A stretch of 64,000 bases of DNA from Thermaerobacter marianensis DSM 12885 (lineage in GTDB: Bacteria > Bacillota > Sulfobacillia > Thermaerobacterales > Thermaerobacteraceae), in the NCBI RefSeq assembly GCF_000184705.1, contig NC_014831.1, forward strand, positions 1,922,001-1,986,000, read 5' to 3'. The notes beneath the pieces are model-generated. The model did not search any database and was not told the DNA's origin. It saw nothing but the letters and a program-made list of their open reading frames with translations. Positions within the stretch are counted from its first letter, which is position 1; every line of letters begins with the position of its first letter. The position numbers were made by a program, and so were the translations under genes. This document shows positions 37,498-44,620 of the stretch, one piece after another.

Positions 37498-37526
37498 TTG
37501 CCCTGTTGCCTGAAGCCGACTATACT
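37498..37526 (+). promoter_or_regulatory. promoter of the S-box-controlled methionine operon
   Basis: TTGCCC (37498-37503) and TATACT (37521-37526) are 17 bases apart. Transcription would start near 37533 and pass directly into the SAM-I riboswitch. Confidence 0.65.
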
Positions 37527-37574: not shown

Positions 37575-37700
37575 CCCCTCTCTTATCCAGAGCGGTCGAG
37601 GGACGGGCCCGATGACGCCGCGGCAACCGGCGACTCCGTCGTGCGGTGCCAACTCCCGCGGCTCCCCTGTGGGGATGCCGAGAGATGAGAGAAGGGGGAC
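37575..37700 (+). ncRNA. SAM-I (S-box) riboswitch
   Basis: Consensus blocks appear in order: TCTTATCCAGAG at the 5' side, GAGGGACGGGCCCGATGACG, CGGCAACC, GGTGCCAACTCC, and a closing GAGAGATGAGAG that pairs with the start. With SAM bound the aptamer should favour the terminator 22 bases later; without SAM the downstream genes are expressed. Controls the reductase and trans-sulfuration genes at 37829-41537. Confidence 0.95.
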
Positions 37701-37721: not shown

Positions 37722-37753
37722 AAGCCCCTTCCTCCTTCGGAAGGGGCTTTTCC
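37722..37753 (+). terminator. riboswitch-controlled intrinsic terminator
   Basis: AAGCCCCTTCC and GGAAGGGGCTT form an 11-base stem with a six-base loop, followed by a T-run. The G-rich tract after the aptamer (GAAGGGGGACGGGG) can pair with the first arm as the antiterminator. Confidence 0.93.
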
Positions 37754-37828
37754 TTTGCCGCTGGCCGGGTTGCGCGGGCTGGCGGCCGGGTTGCGGTCTC
37801 GACCAAGGCCACGGAGGTGACGACCAGG

Positions 37829-40177
37829 GTGACCCATTCGTCCCGGCAGCGCGGCAGCACCGCGCCTCCGCCCGGCCACCCGCACCCGGACGAACCGGCC
37901 GGCTTCGGCCCGGCCGTCCCGGCCGGGGAGGGCGCGGGCCGGCTCTTCCCGCCCTTCCCGATGCTGGCCGACGGTGACCCCTCCTGGAGCCTGGCCGCGG
38001 GGATCGGCGAACCTGGGCAGACGGCCCGCCCCGCGGCGGCCCGCACCGCCGCGGCGGCCGCGGCGGCGCGGGCCGCCCCCACGCCCCCGGAGGCGGGACC
38101 CCCCGGGGAGGTCCTGGCGGAGGTGGCGTGGTGGCCCCTCCGCCGGCCTCGGGCGGTCGAAGCCGCGCACCTCGAGGCCATCCGGGCCGGCGCCCGCCTG
38201 GTCCGGACCCACACCCGCTGGGCCAGCCCGGCCTGGCTGGACCGGGTGCCCCGGACCCGGGTGGAGCAGATCAACCTCTGGGCCGCCAAGCTGGCCCGGT
38301 CGGCCCGGGAGGTGGCGGGAGAGCCCTGCCTGGTCGCCGGCTTGCTGGGTCCCCTGCCGGCCGCCCCGGCAGGCGCGGCTGCCGACGGCTGGGAGGAGGC
38401 GCTGGCGGCCTACCGCACCCAGGTGGCGGGCTTGCTGGCCGGGGGGGTCGACCTGTTCTGGATCGAGGCCCGCACGGCGGCGGAGGCCGCGGCGGCGCTG
38501 GCCGCGGTCCGCGAGGCTTGCCGTCTCCCGGCGGGGCTCGTCTGGATCCCCGGCGGCCCCGGCAGCGGGGGTGATGGCACCGGCACGGGCGACCCTGGCG
38601 AGCTGGAGGCTCACACCCCGCAAGGGTTCGTCGGGCAACTGGTGAAGGTGGTGCGGGCGGCAGGATCCCCCGATGCCCTGGGCGTGGCGGTAACCGGCGG
38701 CCCCGCCGAGGCCGCCCGCTGGCTGGGCGGGCTCCGGCGCGCGGGATGGGCGGGTCCTTTGTGGGCCAGTTTGGGCACCGCCGGCGAGGCGGCCGCGGAC
38801 CGGGAGGGCTGGGAGGCCCTGCGCACCCTGGGGGTCGGCTGGATTGCCGGCACCGGCCCGTGGTCGCCCGCCGGCCTCGCCGCCCTGGGCCGCCGGGCGG
38901 GGCTGGTGCCCGCCACCCTCGGAGACGCCCAGGACACCCCCGCCCACCCGGCCACCCCGGTGCCGCCAAGGCCCGCTCGGCCTCATACGGTCCAGCCCGT
39001 CCCGGCGCCTCCTGCCACCCACGGGGCCCCGCCGCACCCGGCGGTGGCGGGTCCCCTGGCGGGTTCCCATGCCCCCCGGGTGTCCGGGGCGCCCGCAACG
39101 CCCCCGCTGCTGCCCGGGGCAGGCGAGCCCGCCCCGCTGCGGGAGAAGCTGGGCCGCCGGTTCGTCATCAGCGTCGAGCTCGACCCGCCGCGGGGTCCCG
39201 TGACCACCAAGTTCGTGGCCGATGCCCGGACGGTGGCCGCCGCCGGCGCCGATGCCGTCAACGTGGGCGACAGCCCCATGGCACGGCCCCGCATGGCGGC
39301 CCTGGCCGGCGCCTACCTGGTGCGGGCCGCCGCCGGCATCGAGGCGATCATGCACTGCACCACGCGAGACCGGAACCTGATGGCGCTGCAGGCCGACCTC
39401 CTGGCGGCCCACGCCCTGGGCGTGCGGAACGTGCTGGCCTTGACCGGCGATCACCCGAAGCTCGGCACCAGCGGCGCCTCCCCGGTCTACGACGTCGACT
39501 CCATCGGCCTGCTGGAGGTTTTGGCCGCCCTGCGCCGCGGCGAGGACCCCCAGGGCAATCCCCTGGGCGCCCCCGCCGACTTCACGGTGGCCTGTGCCCT
39601 CAGCCCCAACGCGGACGACCTGGACCGGGAGCTCGACCGCTTCCGCCGCAAGCTGGCCGTGGGCGTGGTCGACTTCGTCATGACCCAGCCGCTCTACGAG
39701 ATCGAGCCCCTGGAGCGGGTCCTGGACCGCCTGGGCGGCTGCCCGGTTCCGATCCTCATGGGCGTGATGCCGCTCCACAGCGGCCGGCATGCGCACTACC
39801 TCCACCACCAGGTGCCTGGCATCTCCATCCCGGCCCCCGTCCGCGAGGCCCTGGACCGGGCGGGGGACCGGGGCCTCGAAGTCGGCCTCGAGCTGGCCGA
39901 GGCGGTGGTGGAGGCCGCCCGCCCTTACATCGCCGGCGTGTACGTCGTCGTCTCCTACGGGAAGGCGGAGCCCGTGGCCGAGTTCGTCCGGCGGCTGCGG
40001 ACCCGGTTCGACCAGCCCCTGCCGGGGCCCCAGGGGGCGGTGACCGTCGCCGGTCCGCCGTCCGGCACCGCCACGGCGGCCGGTTCCTCCGCACCGGTGG
40101 CAGCGGTCCAGGCGCCCGTCACCTCGGGTCCGATGCCGGTATCGCGGCAGGGGGAGGTGCGACCCCATGCAGGTTGA
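37829..40177 (+). CDS. metF: methylenetetrahydrofolate reductase fused to a degenerate homocysteine methyltransferase-like domain
   Basis: 782 residues, the layout of Bacillus YitJ: N-terminal methyltransferase barrel (about 90-365), a Pro/Ala linker, then MetF (about 438-730). The MetF part is clear: FVISVELDPPRG, ALTGDHPKLG, ACALSPNADDLDRELDRF, DFVMTQPLYE and PILMGVMPL; it reduces methylene-THF to methyl-THF with a flavin. The barrel aligns by length and strand pattern, but the zinc cysteines are gone: the GVNC site reads VAVTGGP and the GGCCG site reads IAGTGPW, so it should not transfer methyl groups to homocysteine. GTG 37829, after GGAGGTG, is the first good start beyond the riboswitch terminator. 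Confidence 0.88.
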   Translation: MTHSSRQRGSTAPPPGHPHPDEPAGFGPAVPAGEGAGRLFPPFPMLADGDPSWSLAAGIGEPGQTARPAAARTAAAAAAARAAPTPPEAGPPGEVLAEVAWWPLRRPRAVEAAHLEAIRAGARLVRTHTRWASPAWLDRVPRTRVEQINLWAAKLARSAREVAGEPCLVAGLLGPLPAAPAGAAADGWEEALAAYRTQVAGLLAGGVDLFWIEARTAAEAAAALAAVREACRLPAGLVWIPGGPGSGGDGTGTGDPGELEAHTPQGFVGQLVKVVRAAGSPDALGVAVTGGPAEAARWLGGLRRAGWAGPLWASLGTAGEAAADREGWEALRTLGVGWIAGTGPWSPAGLAALGRRAGLVPATLGDAQDTPAHPATPVPPRPARPHTVQPVPAPPATHGAPPHPAVAGPLAGSHAPRVSGAPATPPLLPGAGEPAPLREKLGRRFVISVELDPPRGPVTTKFVADARTVAAAGADAVNVGDSPMARPRMAALAGAYLVRAAAGIEAIMHCTTRDRNLMALQADLLAAHALGVRNVLALTGDHPKLGTSGASPVYDVDSIGLLEVLAALRRGEDPQGNPLGAPADFTVACALSPNADDLDRELDRFRRKLAVGVVDFVMTQPLYEIEPLERVLDRLGGCPVPILMGVMPLHSGRHAHYLHHQVPGISIPAPVREALDRAGDRGLEVGLELAEAVVEAARPYIAGVYVVVSYGKAEPVAEFVRRLRTRFDQPLPGPQGAVTVAGPPSGTATAAGSSAPVAAVQAPVTSGPMPVSRQGEVRPHAG

Positions 40178-41537
40178 ACCCGGCCCTGGCGGCGCCCCCT
40201 CGGGCGCCGGCGGCCACGCGCCCCTTCACGGCGCGCCCGTCGCGCCGGCGGCCCCGCCGCGCACCCTGCGGGTGGAGACGCGGGTCGTCCACGCAGGCGT
40301 CCGCCGCGACCCGCGGACCGGGTCGGTGTCCGTACCGATCTATCAGACGGCCACCTACGAGCACCCCGGACCCGGCCAGACCACAGGGTGGGACTACAGC
40401 CGGCTGCACAACCCGACCCGGGAGGCCTTCGAGGCCGCGGTGGCGGCCCTGGAGGACGGCTTCGCGGCCCTGGCCTTCGCCTCGGGGATGGCGGCCATCA
40501 CGGCGGTCCTGCACCTCTTCAAGCCCGGCGACCACCTGGTGGTGACCGAAGACCTCTACGGCCACACCTGGCGGGTGCTGGAGGAGCTCTTCCGCCACCT
40601 GGGCGTCGCCTACACCCTGGCCGACACCACCGATGCCGCGGCCGTGGCGGCCGCCCTGACCCCGGCGACCCGGGCGGTGCTGGTGGAGAGCCCCACCAAC
40701 CCCCTGATGCGGGTGGCCGACCTGGACGGCCTGGCCGCCCTGTGCCGCGCCCGGCGGCTGTGGCTGATCGTCGACTCGACCCTCTTCACGCCGCTGTTCC
40801 AGCGGCCCCTGGCCCGGGGCGCCCACGTGGTGATCCACAGCGCCAGCAAGTACCTGGCGGGGCACAACGACGTGGTGGCGGGGGTGGCCGTGGCGGACGG
40901 TCCGGCACTGGCGGACGAACTGGCCTCCATCCGCACGGTGACGGGCGGGATCCTGGGGCCCCACGACGCCTGGCTGGCCGTCCGCGGCCTGAAGACCCTG
41001 GCCCTGCGCATGGAGCAGGCCCAGCGGAACGCCCTGACCCTGGCCCACTGGCTGGCGGCCCACCCCGCCGTGGCGGCGGTCTATTATCCCGGGCTGCCGT
41101 CGAGCCCGTTCCACCGGCGGTGTGTGGAGCAGGCGGCGGGGTTTGGCGCCATGCTGAGCTTCCGGCTGCGCGAGCCCGGGAAGGCCGACCAGGTGCTCCG
41201 GCGCCTGGGGCTGGTCATCTTCGCCGAGAGCTTCGGCGGGGTCGAGAGCCTGATCACCCACCCGGCCAGCACGACCCACAAGGAGATGCCCCTGGCGCTG
41301 CGAGAGCGGCTGGGCATCGACGCCGGGCTGCTGCGGCTGTCGGTGGGCATCGAGGCGGTGGAGGACCTGGCCGCCGACCTGGAGTACGCCCTGGAAGGGC
41401 CGTCGGGGCTGCCGGTGGCGGAGGCACGGCAACGGGCAGAAGCGACGCTGGCCGCCCTCTCGGGCCGGGAGGCGTCGAAGCCCTGCGCGGCCGGCCGGGC
41501 GACGGGCGTGGAACCGGCACCTGGCGCAGCGCATTGA
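40167..41537 (+). CDS. PLP-dependent trans-sulfuration enzyme (cystathionine gamma-synthase / beta-lyase group)
   Basis: Cys/Met-metabolism enzyme of 456 residues. The PLP-lysine motif is SASKYLAGHNDVVAG; YSRLHNPTR, FASGMAAITAVL and VESPTNPLMRVADLD are family landmarks. The stretch TGGILGPHDAWLAVRGLKTLALRME and the ending resemble Bacillus MetC (cystathionine beta-lyase) and MetI; exact specificity (synthase, beta- or gamma-lyase, acetylhomoserine sulfhydrylase) cannot be settled by eye. The first 35 residues are a low-complexity extension. ATG overlaps the reductase stop by 11 bases, with GGGAGGTG upstream, so it belongs to the SAM-controlled operon. Confidence 0.9.
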   Translation: MQVEPGPGGAPSGAGGHAPLHGAPVAPAAPPRTLRVETRVVHAGVRRDPRTGSVSVPIYQTATYEHPGPGQTTGWDYSRLHNPTREAFEAAVAALEDGFAALAFASGMAAITAVLHLFKPGDHLVVTEDLYGHTWRVLEELFRHLGVAYTLADTTDAAAVAAALTPATRAVLVESPTNPLMRVADLDGLAALCRARRLWLIVDSTLFTPLFQRPLARGAHVVIHSASKYLAGHNDVVAGVAVADGPALADELASIRTVTGGILGPHDAWLAVRGLKTLALRMEQAQRNALTLAHWLAAHPAVAAVYYPGLPSSPFHRRCVEQAAGFGAMLSFRLREPGKADQVLRRLGLVIFAESFGGVESLITHPASTTHKEMPLALRERLGIDAGLLRLSVGIEAVEDLAADLEYALEGPSGLPVAEARQRAEATLAALSGREASKPCAAGRATGVEPAPGAAH

Positions 41538-41905: not shown

Positions 41906-44356
41906 TCACCGGCCGGCCGGCACCGCCGCCCACTCCTCCCGCAGTTCCCGCGCCGCCTGGACCATGTGGCGCAGGGCCGGTTCGACCTCCTGGTAGCGCC
42001 GGGTCTTCAGCCCGCAGTCGGGGTTCACCCAGAGCTGGCCGGGATCCAGCACCGCCGCAGCCTTGCGCAGCAGGCCCTTGATCTCGTCCACCGGCGGCAC
42101 CCGGGGCGAGTGGATGTCGTACACTCCGGGGCCGATGTCGCTGGGGTAGCGGTGCTCCACGAAGGCGTCCAGGAGCTCCATCCCCGACCGGGACGCCTCG
42201 ATGAGGATCACGTCCGCATCCAGGGCGGCGATGGCATCGATGATGTCGTTGAACTCGGAGTAGCACATGTGGGTGTGGATCTGGGTCTCGTCCCGCACCC
42301 CGCCCGTGACCAGGCGGAAGCACTCGGTTGCCCAGGCCAGGTAGGCCTCCCGGTCGTCCCGCCGCAGGGGCATGGCCTCGCGGAAGGCCGGTTCGTCGAT
42401 CTGGATGACCCGGATCCCCGCCGCCTCCAGGTCCTGGACCTCGTCCCGGATGGCCAGGGCGATCTGGCGGCAGGTCACCTCCCGGGGCTGGTCGTCGCGG
42501 ACGAAGGACCACTGCAGGATGGTCACGGGACCCGTCAGCATGCCCTTGACGGGCCGGCGCGTCAGGGACTGGGCGTAGGTGATCCACTTCACCGTCATGG
42601 GGCCCGGCCGGGCCACGTCACCGTAGAGAATGGGCGGCTTGACGCAGCGGCTGCCGTAGCTCTGCACCCAGCCGTGGCGGGTGAAGGCGAAGCCCTCCAG
42701 CTGCTCGGCGAAGTACTCCACCATGTCGTTGCGCTCGGGCTCGCCGTGGACCAGCACGTCCAGGCCCAGCTCCTCCTGCAGCCGGATCACCCGGCGGATC
42801 TCGGCGCGGATGCCCTCCTCGTAGGCCGCCCCGTCGATCTCCCCACGGCGCCAGCGGGCCCGGAGCCGGCGTACCTCCGGCGTCTGGGGGAAGGAGCCGA
42901 TGGTGGTGGTGGGCAGGAGGGGCAGGCCGAGCCGCTCCCGCTGGCGGGCGCGGCGCTCGGGCGCCGTTGACGGTCGCCGGGCGTCGTCCGGGCGCAGCCG
43001 GGCCAGCCGCTCCTGCACGTCGGGCCGGGTCCGGCGCGGCGAGCTGCGACGAGCGGCCACGGCCGCACGGCTGGCGGCCAGGGCGTCGGCCACGGCCTGC
43101 CGTCCCTCGTTGAGGGCGCGGGTGAGGACGGCCACCTCCTCCAGTTTCTGCTTCGCGAAGGCCAGCCAGCCCTTGATCTCCGGATCGAGGGCCGTCTCCA
43201 GCTCCAGGTCGATGGGCACGTGCAGCAGCGAGCAGGACGGGGCCACGAAGATCCGCTCGGGCCCCACCGCGTCCCGCGCCCGCTCGAGCAGCGCCAGGGC
43301 GGCCTCCAGGTCCGTGCGCCAGACGTTGCGGCCGTCCACCACACCCAGCGAGAGGTGCAGTGCCGGCGGCACGCCGGCGGCCAGCACCTGCTCCAGCTGG
43401 CCGGGGTCCCGGACCAGGTCGAGGTGCAGGGCGTGGACGGGCAATCCGAGGGCCAGATCCAGGTTGTCCCGCAGGCCCTCGAAGTAGGTCGCGAGGAAGA
43501 GCCTCAGCCCCGGTGCCGCCTGGGCCAGCGCCGCGTAGGCGCGGCGGTAGGCGTCCCGGACCGGTTCGTCCAGGTCCAGGGCCAGGAACGGCTCGTCCAG
43601 CTGGACCCAGGTGGCGCCGGCGGCCTGAAGCTCCCGCAGCACCTGCCCGTACACGGGCAGGAGGCCGTCGAGCAGGGCGAGCCGCGCATCGGACGGGACG
43701 CCCGCCCCCACCCCGGCGGCGGATGGTGCCGAGCCCGGCCCCTGGCGATCCGTTCCTGACGAACCGGCCGGCCGGCCGCCGGGCCCGAAGCCTCCGGCGC
43801 CACCGCCCACGGTCCCGGCCGCTGCGGCATCCCGCATCTTGGCCAGGAGGAGGAAGCTCACCGGTCCCAGCAGCACGGGACGGGCCGTCAAGCCCAGGGC
43901 CCGGGCCTCCCGGAACTCCTCGACCACCTTGCGCGACGCCAGGCGGAAGGTCTGGCCCGGTTCCAGCTCCGGCACGATGTAGTGGTAGTTGGTGTCGAAC
44001 CACTTGGTCATCTCCAGGGCGGGGATCCCCTGGCCGGGCGTGCCCCGGGCCATGGCGAAGTAGACGTCCAGGGGGACCTCGGCCCCCGGCGTCTCCGGAT
44101 CCCAGCCGTAGCGGGCCGGGACGGCGCCCACCATGCAGGCCGTATCCAGCACGTGGTCGTAGAGGGAGAAGTCGCCGGCGGGAACGATGTCAAGCCCCGC
44201 CTCCCGCTGCAGCCGCCAGTGCCGGCGGCGCAGCTCCGCCGCCACCTTGCGCAGTTCGTCCGCCGGGATCCTGCCGTCCCAGTACGCCTCCAGGGCCTGC
44301 TTCAGTTCCCGCCCCGCCCCGATGCGGGGGAAACCCAGGTTGGTCGCCAGGGCCAC
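41906..44356 (-). CDS. metE: cobalamin-independent methionine synthase
   Basis: Transfers methyl from methyl-THF-polyglutamate to homocysteine. 816 residues, two barrels: N-terminal [14 protein letters not shown] through [15 protein letters not shown]-terminal [18 protein letters not shown] onward. Zinc ligands are visible as His and Cys in [10 protein letters not shown] and Cys in [17 protein letters not shown] is conserved. Slightly longer than usual through a Gly/Pro-rich insertion after [12 protein letters not shown] 44356, behind GAGGAGGCGAGG, starts with [11 protein letters not shown] as in the family. Expressed under its own SAM-I riboswitch. It supplies the methyl transfer that the neighbouring fusion has probably lost. 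Confidence 0.95.
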
Positions 44357-44463
44357 CGGTCCTCGCCTCCTCTGCCGGCCCGCAGCCGTCCAGCCCACCG
44401 GCCTGCCCCCGCCGGCCGGCGGCCGAAGGGGGGCGGTGGGCCCGGAGACCGGGGCCGGCCGCA

Positions 44464-44493
44464 ATAAAAAACCTCTCCGGGAAAGGAGAGGTT
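44464..44493 (-). terminator. riboswitch-controlled terminator before metE
   Basis: On the minus strand AACCTCTCC and GGAGAGGTT form a nine-base stem around a six-base loop followed by TTTTTATT. It ends metE transcription when SAM is bound upstream. Confidence 0.93.
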
Positions 44494-44502
44494 CCTCGCC
44501 TT

Positions 44503-44620
44503 TCCCTATCTCCCGGGAGACGCCTCCCGCGGGAATTGGCACCGTACCGCCGCTGTCCACCGGCGGCCGGTTGCCGTGGCGTCATCGGGCCCGTCCCTCG
44601 GCCACTCTGGATAGGGAGCT
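44503..44620 (-). ncRNA. SAM-I (S-box) riboswitch of metE
   Basis: Reading the minus strand: CTCCCTATCCAGAG, then GAGGGACGGGCCCGATGACG, CGGCAACC, GGTGCCAATTCC, and a closing GGGAGATAGGGA pairing with the start. The core is nearly identical to the plus-strand copy at 37575, while the variable arms differ. metE begins about 107 bases downstream, past the terminator. Confidence 0.95.

Follow-up and report, generated by a model that had tools for sequence, protein, structure and literature searches.

The homocysteine methyltransferase (HMT) domain of the fused HMT-MTHFR protein of Thermaerobacter marianensis DSM 12885 lacks all three zinc-binding cysteines, and its barrel is retained under purifying selection. 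As judged from its sequence, this domain has almost certainly ceased to catalyse methyl transfer. It is probably kept as a non-catalytic N-terminal scaffold that aids the sole MTHFR of the cell. The gene lies in a window of 64,000 nucleotides (NC_014831.1, positions 1,922,001 to 1,986,000), which is the whole stretch of DNA that was analysed, and all coordinates below are positions in this window.

The fused gene and its neighbourhood

The features of the fused gene and its upstream region are as follows.

37498..37526, + strand: sigma-70-like operon promoter, TTGCCC-17-TATACT (consensus scan, 9/12; 1 found against 0.1 expected)
37580..37691, + strand: SAM (S-box) riboswitch aptamer 5' of the fused gene (Rfam RF00162, 82 bits, E 8.5e-18)
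37722..37749, + strand: intrinsic terminator-like hairpin of the riboswitch expression platform, with a T-rich tail after an 11-bp stem
37813..37820, + strand: perfect Shine-Dalgarno sequence, GGAGGTGA, 8 nt 5' of the GTG start; the motif recurs in G001 and G002
37829..40177, + strand: fused HMT-MTHFR gene of the YitJ/PRK08645 type, 782 aa, GTG start at 37829
37937..38908, + strand: HMT-like (beta/alpha)8 domain that has lost its zinc site, residues 37-360 (PF02574; eight-strand model; MmuM superposition)
38909..39127, + strand: disordered linker rich in Pro and Ala, residues 361-433 (most of it at pLDDT below 50; near-neutral evolution)
39128..40012, + strand: intact MTHFR (MetF) domain, residues 434-728 (PF02219, 87.9 bits)

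The genome of T. marianensis (G000) is a single contig of 2,844,696 bases, and the fused protein gives its only PF02574 match and its only PF02219 match in profile searches. A second, intact HMT elsewhere in the genome is rejected, because the PF02574 match is single. The score of the fused protein for S-methyl_trans (PF02574) is 68.5 bits against the Pfam cut-off of 22, with positions 26-169 of the 283 profile positions aligned, so that the protein belongs to this family as a fold. Its MTHFR domain belongs to PF02219, and E450, D541 and Q620 of this domain are invariant across the 51 proteins of alignment A3. We take these residues, matched to their E. coli equivalents, to be the conserved catalytic Glu, Asp and Gln of MTHFR. 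No internal start that is conserved and has a ribosome site was found at the HMT/MTHFR boundary of the fused gene, indicating that the HMT part is translated together with MTHFR.

YitJ/SamT of Bacillus subtilis is described as a bifunctional MTHFR and (R,S)-AdoMet homocysteine S-methyltransferase (PMC6302742). The T. marianensis protein resembles the YitJ/SamT family (PRK08645/NF006396) in that the HMT domain precedes the MTHFR domain in one chain, the MTHFR is homologous over its full length, and the gene is controlled by a SAM riboswitch. The yitJ gene is likewise under S-box (SAM riboswitch) control, and a SAM riboswitch 5' of the fused gene is common to the three other Thermaerobacter species (G001-G003) and the sister family. 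In contrast to the YitJ family, in which the three zinc cysteines (CCC) are present, the T. marianensis protein lacks the zinc ligands, has mostly lost the pocket and has a long linker and long insertions; its NF006396/PRK08645 equivalog score is 354.3 bits, below the required 453.

Three further elements belong to the two genes downstream of the fused gene.

40167..41537, + strand: Cys/Met-metabolism PLP enzyme of the cystathionine gamma-synthase/lyase family (PF01053, 448 bits), its start overlapping the end of the fused gene
41906..44560, - strand: metE, limits of the open reading frame, likely start near 44356 (PRK05222, 1149 bits)
44503..44617, - strand: SAM riboswitch of metE (RF00162, 86.6 bits), with a terminator-like hairpin behind it at 44486-44472

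The sequence-only reading of the window had noted metE close by with an intact zinc site, and this is correct: the translation contains HMC, E and PDCG, namely H-x-C, E at +24 and C at +85, which is the spacing of E. coli MetE. Its description of metE as divergent is incorrect. The gene is convergent, tail-to-tail with the HMT-MTHFR/PLP operon and separated from the fused gene by the PLP gene, and a SAM riboswitch heads each of the two convergent units. MetE is the methionine synthase found in the T. marianensis genome, and is the intact neighbour that supplies methionine under the same kind of riboswitch control, but it belongs to a separate protein family with another zinc site (HxC, E, C). 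MetH was not found in this genome and is rejected as its methionine synthase, because the matches are weak and all fall on the fused HMT itself. PF02219 gives no match in G004, G005 and G006, which belong to the same family and order as T. marianensis; G004 and G005 carry MetE nevertheless, and the MetE locus of G005 (97% complete) has a SAM riboswitch.

Erosion of the active site and retention of the barrel

The altered sites of the HMT domain, assigned by alignment, are the following.

37970..37987, + strand: degenerate DGxxGT, residues 48-53, DGDPSW (alignment A1)
38210..38212, + strand: H128 in place of the Asn of TNT
38465..38470, + strand: E213-A214 in place of ET, the Glu being kept here
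38690..38692, + strand: V288 in place of zinc Cys 1 (GVNC)
38852..38857, + strand: T342-G343 in place of zinc Cys 2 and Cys 3 (GGCCG)

In the alignment with 11 relatives, GVNC is changed to GVAV and GGCCG to AGTGP. The absence of the three cysteines, as claimed in the sequence-only reading, extends to all four Thermaerobacter species (G000-G003): the Cys1 position is V, V, A and T in these species, and Cys2-Cys3 is T-G in every one. The Asn of TNT is replaced by His or Ala (THT/TAT) and the Thr of ET by Ala in 4/4 species, and in G003 the Glu of ET is also replaced by Ala (EA in the others, AA in G003). The PNAG loop is mostly lost across the genus, as is the GT of DGxxGT. That the DGxxGT motif is gone, as had been stated, is slightly too strong, because D48 and G49 of the ADGDPSW region are kept in 3/4 species. 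This degenerate motif is followed by an insertion that differs between the species and is about 30-60 residues long.

These sites were compared with the remainder of the domain. Across 166 intact fusions, 72 positions reach a conservation of at least 70%, and 16 of these positions were assigned to active-site motifs. When the positions are divided in this way, by our own motif list, the genus keeps 3 of the 16 active-site positions and 40 of the 56 others (p=2.9e-4). The protein fails to qualify as a member of the enzyme family at the defining ligands, and lacks the DGxxGT, TNT and ET motifs as well, whereas its fold and its domain architecture hold. The loss of catalysis that had been proposed is strongly supported by the absence of the ligands in four of four species, together with the losses in TNT, ET, PNAG and GT.

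All three cysteines are kept in 85 of 85 other fused proteins examined across Bacillota and the class of Thermaerobacter, so that no zinc-less fusion was found elsewhere in Bacillota among them. L099, L100 and L105 were rejected as zinc-less fusions, because they represent other reading frames or separate genes. The nearest relatives, which form a sister family of the same class (f38), also keep the three cysteines; the MTHFR part of one member, G054, is 58% identical to that of T. marianensis. Because the other three Thermaerobacter species share the loss and the 85 other proteins have the three cysteines, the loss is due neither to chance nor to sequencing error. It is genuine, goes back to the ancestor of the genus and is recent on the scale of the class. 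In some f38 members DGxxGT is already DAAYG(S/T), the three cysteines notwithstanding. The presence of MetE is rejected as a sufficient cause of zinc loss, because in G054 MetE adjoins a fused gene with an intact HMT.

A c-di-GMP-I riboswitch lies near the fused gene of the sister-family genome G462 (L128:6055-6137). Two tandem MetE-like genes (split MetE) lie directly 5' of the intact fusion in G022, G042 and G057 (f18) and in G012, G037 and G053 (f8). Those of G012, G037 and G053 fit the split MetE described, Sulfobacillus included, by Price et al. (PMC7857596). A deltaproteobacterial locus (L196, JANYDK010000147.1) has His at the position of zinc Cys 1 (GINHGDGP) and keeps GGCC, which could form a putative Cys2-His zinc site.

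Selection on the HMT part was estimated for the HMT core, the linker and the MTHFR part separately. In the closest pair of species (G001 and G002), omega is 0.27 for the HMT core, about 1.4 for the linker and 0.08 for MTHFR, and the value for the HMT core is below 1 with p=9e-4 (synonymous versus nonsynonymous change). The remaining pairs give HMT core values of 0.33-0.45 and MTHFR values of 0.06-0.11. Nonsynonymous change is far slower in the HMT core than in the linker (p=6e-7). The dN of the HMT core is roughly 3-10 times that of MTHFR in Thermaerobacter; the two are about equal in the intact proteins of f38. These results indicate that the HMT domain is relaxed, yet under purifying selection, and they supply the dN/dS check suggested in the sequence-only reading (0.27-0.45 for the HMT core against 0.06-0.11 for MTHFR over all pairs). 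Judged by its sequence, the domain therefore has the marks of a pseudo-enzyme, in which catalytic residues are lost and the scaffold remains under selection. That the frame is open is no evidence in itself, since the HMT part stands in-frame ahead of an essential MTHFR, with no conserved internal start. The values of omega and the selective loss of motifs reflect constraint on the fold, and by themselves do not separate a useful scaffold from the avoidance of misfolding.

The fused protein was modelled with AlphaFold2 from an alignment of 51 sequences, intact homologues included. The predicted HMT part has eight strands, with pLDDT mostly 82-94 except in strand 1 and its insertion and in the loop near residue 245; MTHFR is modelled confidently and the linker is disordered. 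In superpositions, 259 residues of the HMT model fit E. coli MmuM (5dmm) at 2.5 A, and 265 residues fit the homocysteine domain of T. maritima MetH at 2.7 A. The claim that the barrel outline is kept thus agrees with the overlay, and the model conforms to the (beta/alpha)8 barrel of PF02574, though its foldedness may be overstated because the intact homologues in the alignment are able to impose the fold. The predicted resemblance to the homocysteine domains of MetH, MmuM and BHMT (2.5-2.7 A over about 260 residues) is accompanied by the absence of their zinc triad and by the erosion of DGxxGT, TNT, ET and PNAG.

Zinc-less fusions in Verrucomicrobia

Zinc-less fusions of Verrucomicrobia were first met in a scan of genome contigs, which was followed by a search of the class and by inspection of 40 loci. 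Three kinds of protein occur among these loci, namely intact, GS type and DY type. The zinc-less fusions number 28 (8 of GS type, 19 of DY type, and L247).

Zinc-less HMT-MTHFR loci: L187, L190, L191, L205, L211-L224, L226, L227, L229-L233, L236, L241

The eight GS-type proteins have GVAPAFGP, GGGSG, LLQ(A/S)F and DGxVAA, and MetH is present in 7/8 of their genomes. Their HMT domains are compact and conserved, with 77-86% identity between species; their HMT dN is about 3.5 times the MTHFR dN, with synonymous sites being near saturation. The 19 DY-type proteins (L215-L224, L226, L227, L229-L233, L236 and L241) have mostly NGT.G or GGS.G, with Gly or Ala at Cys1, and GGDYGT in place of GGCCGT; they keep DGA.GT, ETF and TN(S/T). 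L247 (G584) has one of the three zinc cysteines left (NAS, GGCVG) in a genome with both MetH and MetE, and may represent an intermediate of zinc loss.

In a tree of 199 fusions, the 28 verrucomicrobial proteins form one clade beside intact relatives (support 0.84-0.89), and the Thermaerobacter proteins form a separate clade (support 1.0). The zinc site of MTHFR-fused HMT domains has been lost at least twice, because the two zinc-less clades are separate. As in Thermaerobacter, the zinc cysteines are replaced, MTHFR is kept and another methionine synthase is almost always present in the genome; the verrucomicrobial proteins differ in their independent origin, in their fixed replacements (P..GS or G..DY) and in that the rest of the domain is far better kept. 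MetH or MetE is present in about 26 of the 28 zinc-less genomes, and neither was seen in two draft genomes. A statistical link between zinc loss and another methionine synthase in Verrucomicrobia was rejected: the counts (about 26/28 for zinc-less, 13/17 for intact) are consistent with it but too weak for a claim.

Role of the retained barrel

The protein goes back to a YitJ/PRK08645-type ancestor in which a zinc HMT and an MTHFR formed one bifunctional enzyme. In Thermaerobacter methionine is made by MetE, and the HMT active site was erased (the three Cys, the Asn of TNT, the Thr of ET, the GT of DGxxGT and the greater part of the PNAG loop). The barrel is retained under moderate purifying selection, probably as a non-catalytic N-terminal module of the only MTHFR of the cell. 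The likeliest job of this module would be structural, in the folding, assembly or stability of the essential MTHFR at high temperature. That the same zinc loss occurred independently in another phylum suggests that the domain probably serves MTHFR without catalysis. A structural or regulatory role had been proposed earlier. Its structural part is moderately supported by omega below 1, the selective loss of the active site, the eight-strand model and the second case; the accompanying suggestions of homocysteine holding and folate sensing are unsupported in Thermaerobacter, because the homocysteine-binding residues are eroded too.

Some observations count against a scaffold. Many MTHFRs function without an HMT domain. 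Omega below 1 may only mirror the avoidance of misfolding, selection in any case removes stops and frameshifts that lie ahead of an essential MTHFR, and the domain is clearly decaying, as seen in its variable insertions, its varying catalytic letters and an HMT core dN several times the MTHFR dN. The main rival explanation, to which we give a minor but real chance, is that after MetE took over, the HMT domain became a passive relic, a decaying in-frame N-terminal spacer that must not aggregate. The 3-10-fold dN and the unfixed letters at Cys1 agree with this, as do the long insertions peculiar to single species (in G003, about 60 residues or more are added ahead of strand 8), the loss of even the homocysteine-binding Glu in G003 and the early step in the first motif seen in the sister family (DAAYGS/T). 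Against a relic stand the evolution of the HMT core at omega well below 1 and far below the linker rates, the retention of conserved positions outside the active site, the preservation of about 320 residues in four species with no large deletion, and the compact, well-conserved zinc-less domain of Verrucomicrobia.

It is unlikely that the domain is a regulatory pseudo-enzyme through which MTHFR is adjusted in response to homocysteine, methionine or SAM. At the MTHFR step one-carbon units become committed to methionine, and eukaryotic MTHFR bears a SAM-sensing domain that is analogous though unrelated. These points would suit such a role, as would the DY type, which replaced its zinc ligands independently with the rest of the pocket kept, but the eroded pocket of Thermaerobacter (TNT, ET, PNAG) argues against homocysteine sensing there. 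Continued catalysis through alternative metal ligands or a metal-free mechanism is very improbable, despite the retained fold and the Glu kept in 3/4 species, because no Cys/His set replaces the triad, the Cys1 letters vary, other substrate-binding residues are lost and MetE is present. An artefact (frameshift, misassembly or misalignment) masking intact cysteines, which high-GC sequence with many overlapping open frames might produce, is refuted by the agreement of four genomes, in which the frames are open and the flanking Gly/Pro align exactly, and by the lack of any further PF02574 match in the genome.

Automatic annotation tends to label zinc-less fusions as bifunctional homocysteine methyltransferases, and in metabolic models they would be assigned an activity that is very probably absent. 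A search of the open-licence literature found no prior description of a zinc-less HMT-MTHFR. With two independent losses of the zinc site in HMT domains fused to MTHFR, the case that HMT also serves MTHFR becomes a testable one, and the zinc-less proteins offer a simple system in which a fused enzyme turns into a structural or regulatory module. We propose only tentatively that, in fused HMT-MTHFRs generally, the HMT domain performs a second job for MTHFR that outlives catalysis, either assembly or the sensing of homocysteine or methionine. Such a job would explain why the zinc site was erased and the domain kept in at least two phyla, with the stable signatures NG..GGDYGT and VAPAFGP..GGGSG in Verrucomicrobia. 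Holding or sensing of homocysteine is possible in the DY type, because mainly the metal ligands are changed there and most other pocket motifs are kept. The DY type may be regarded as a candidate for a new metal site, a new activity or a zinc-less binder.
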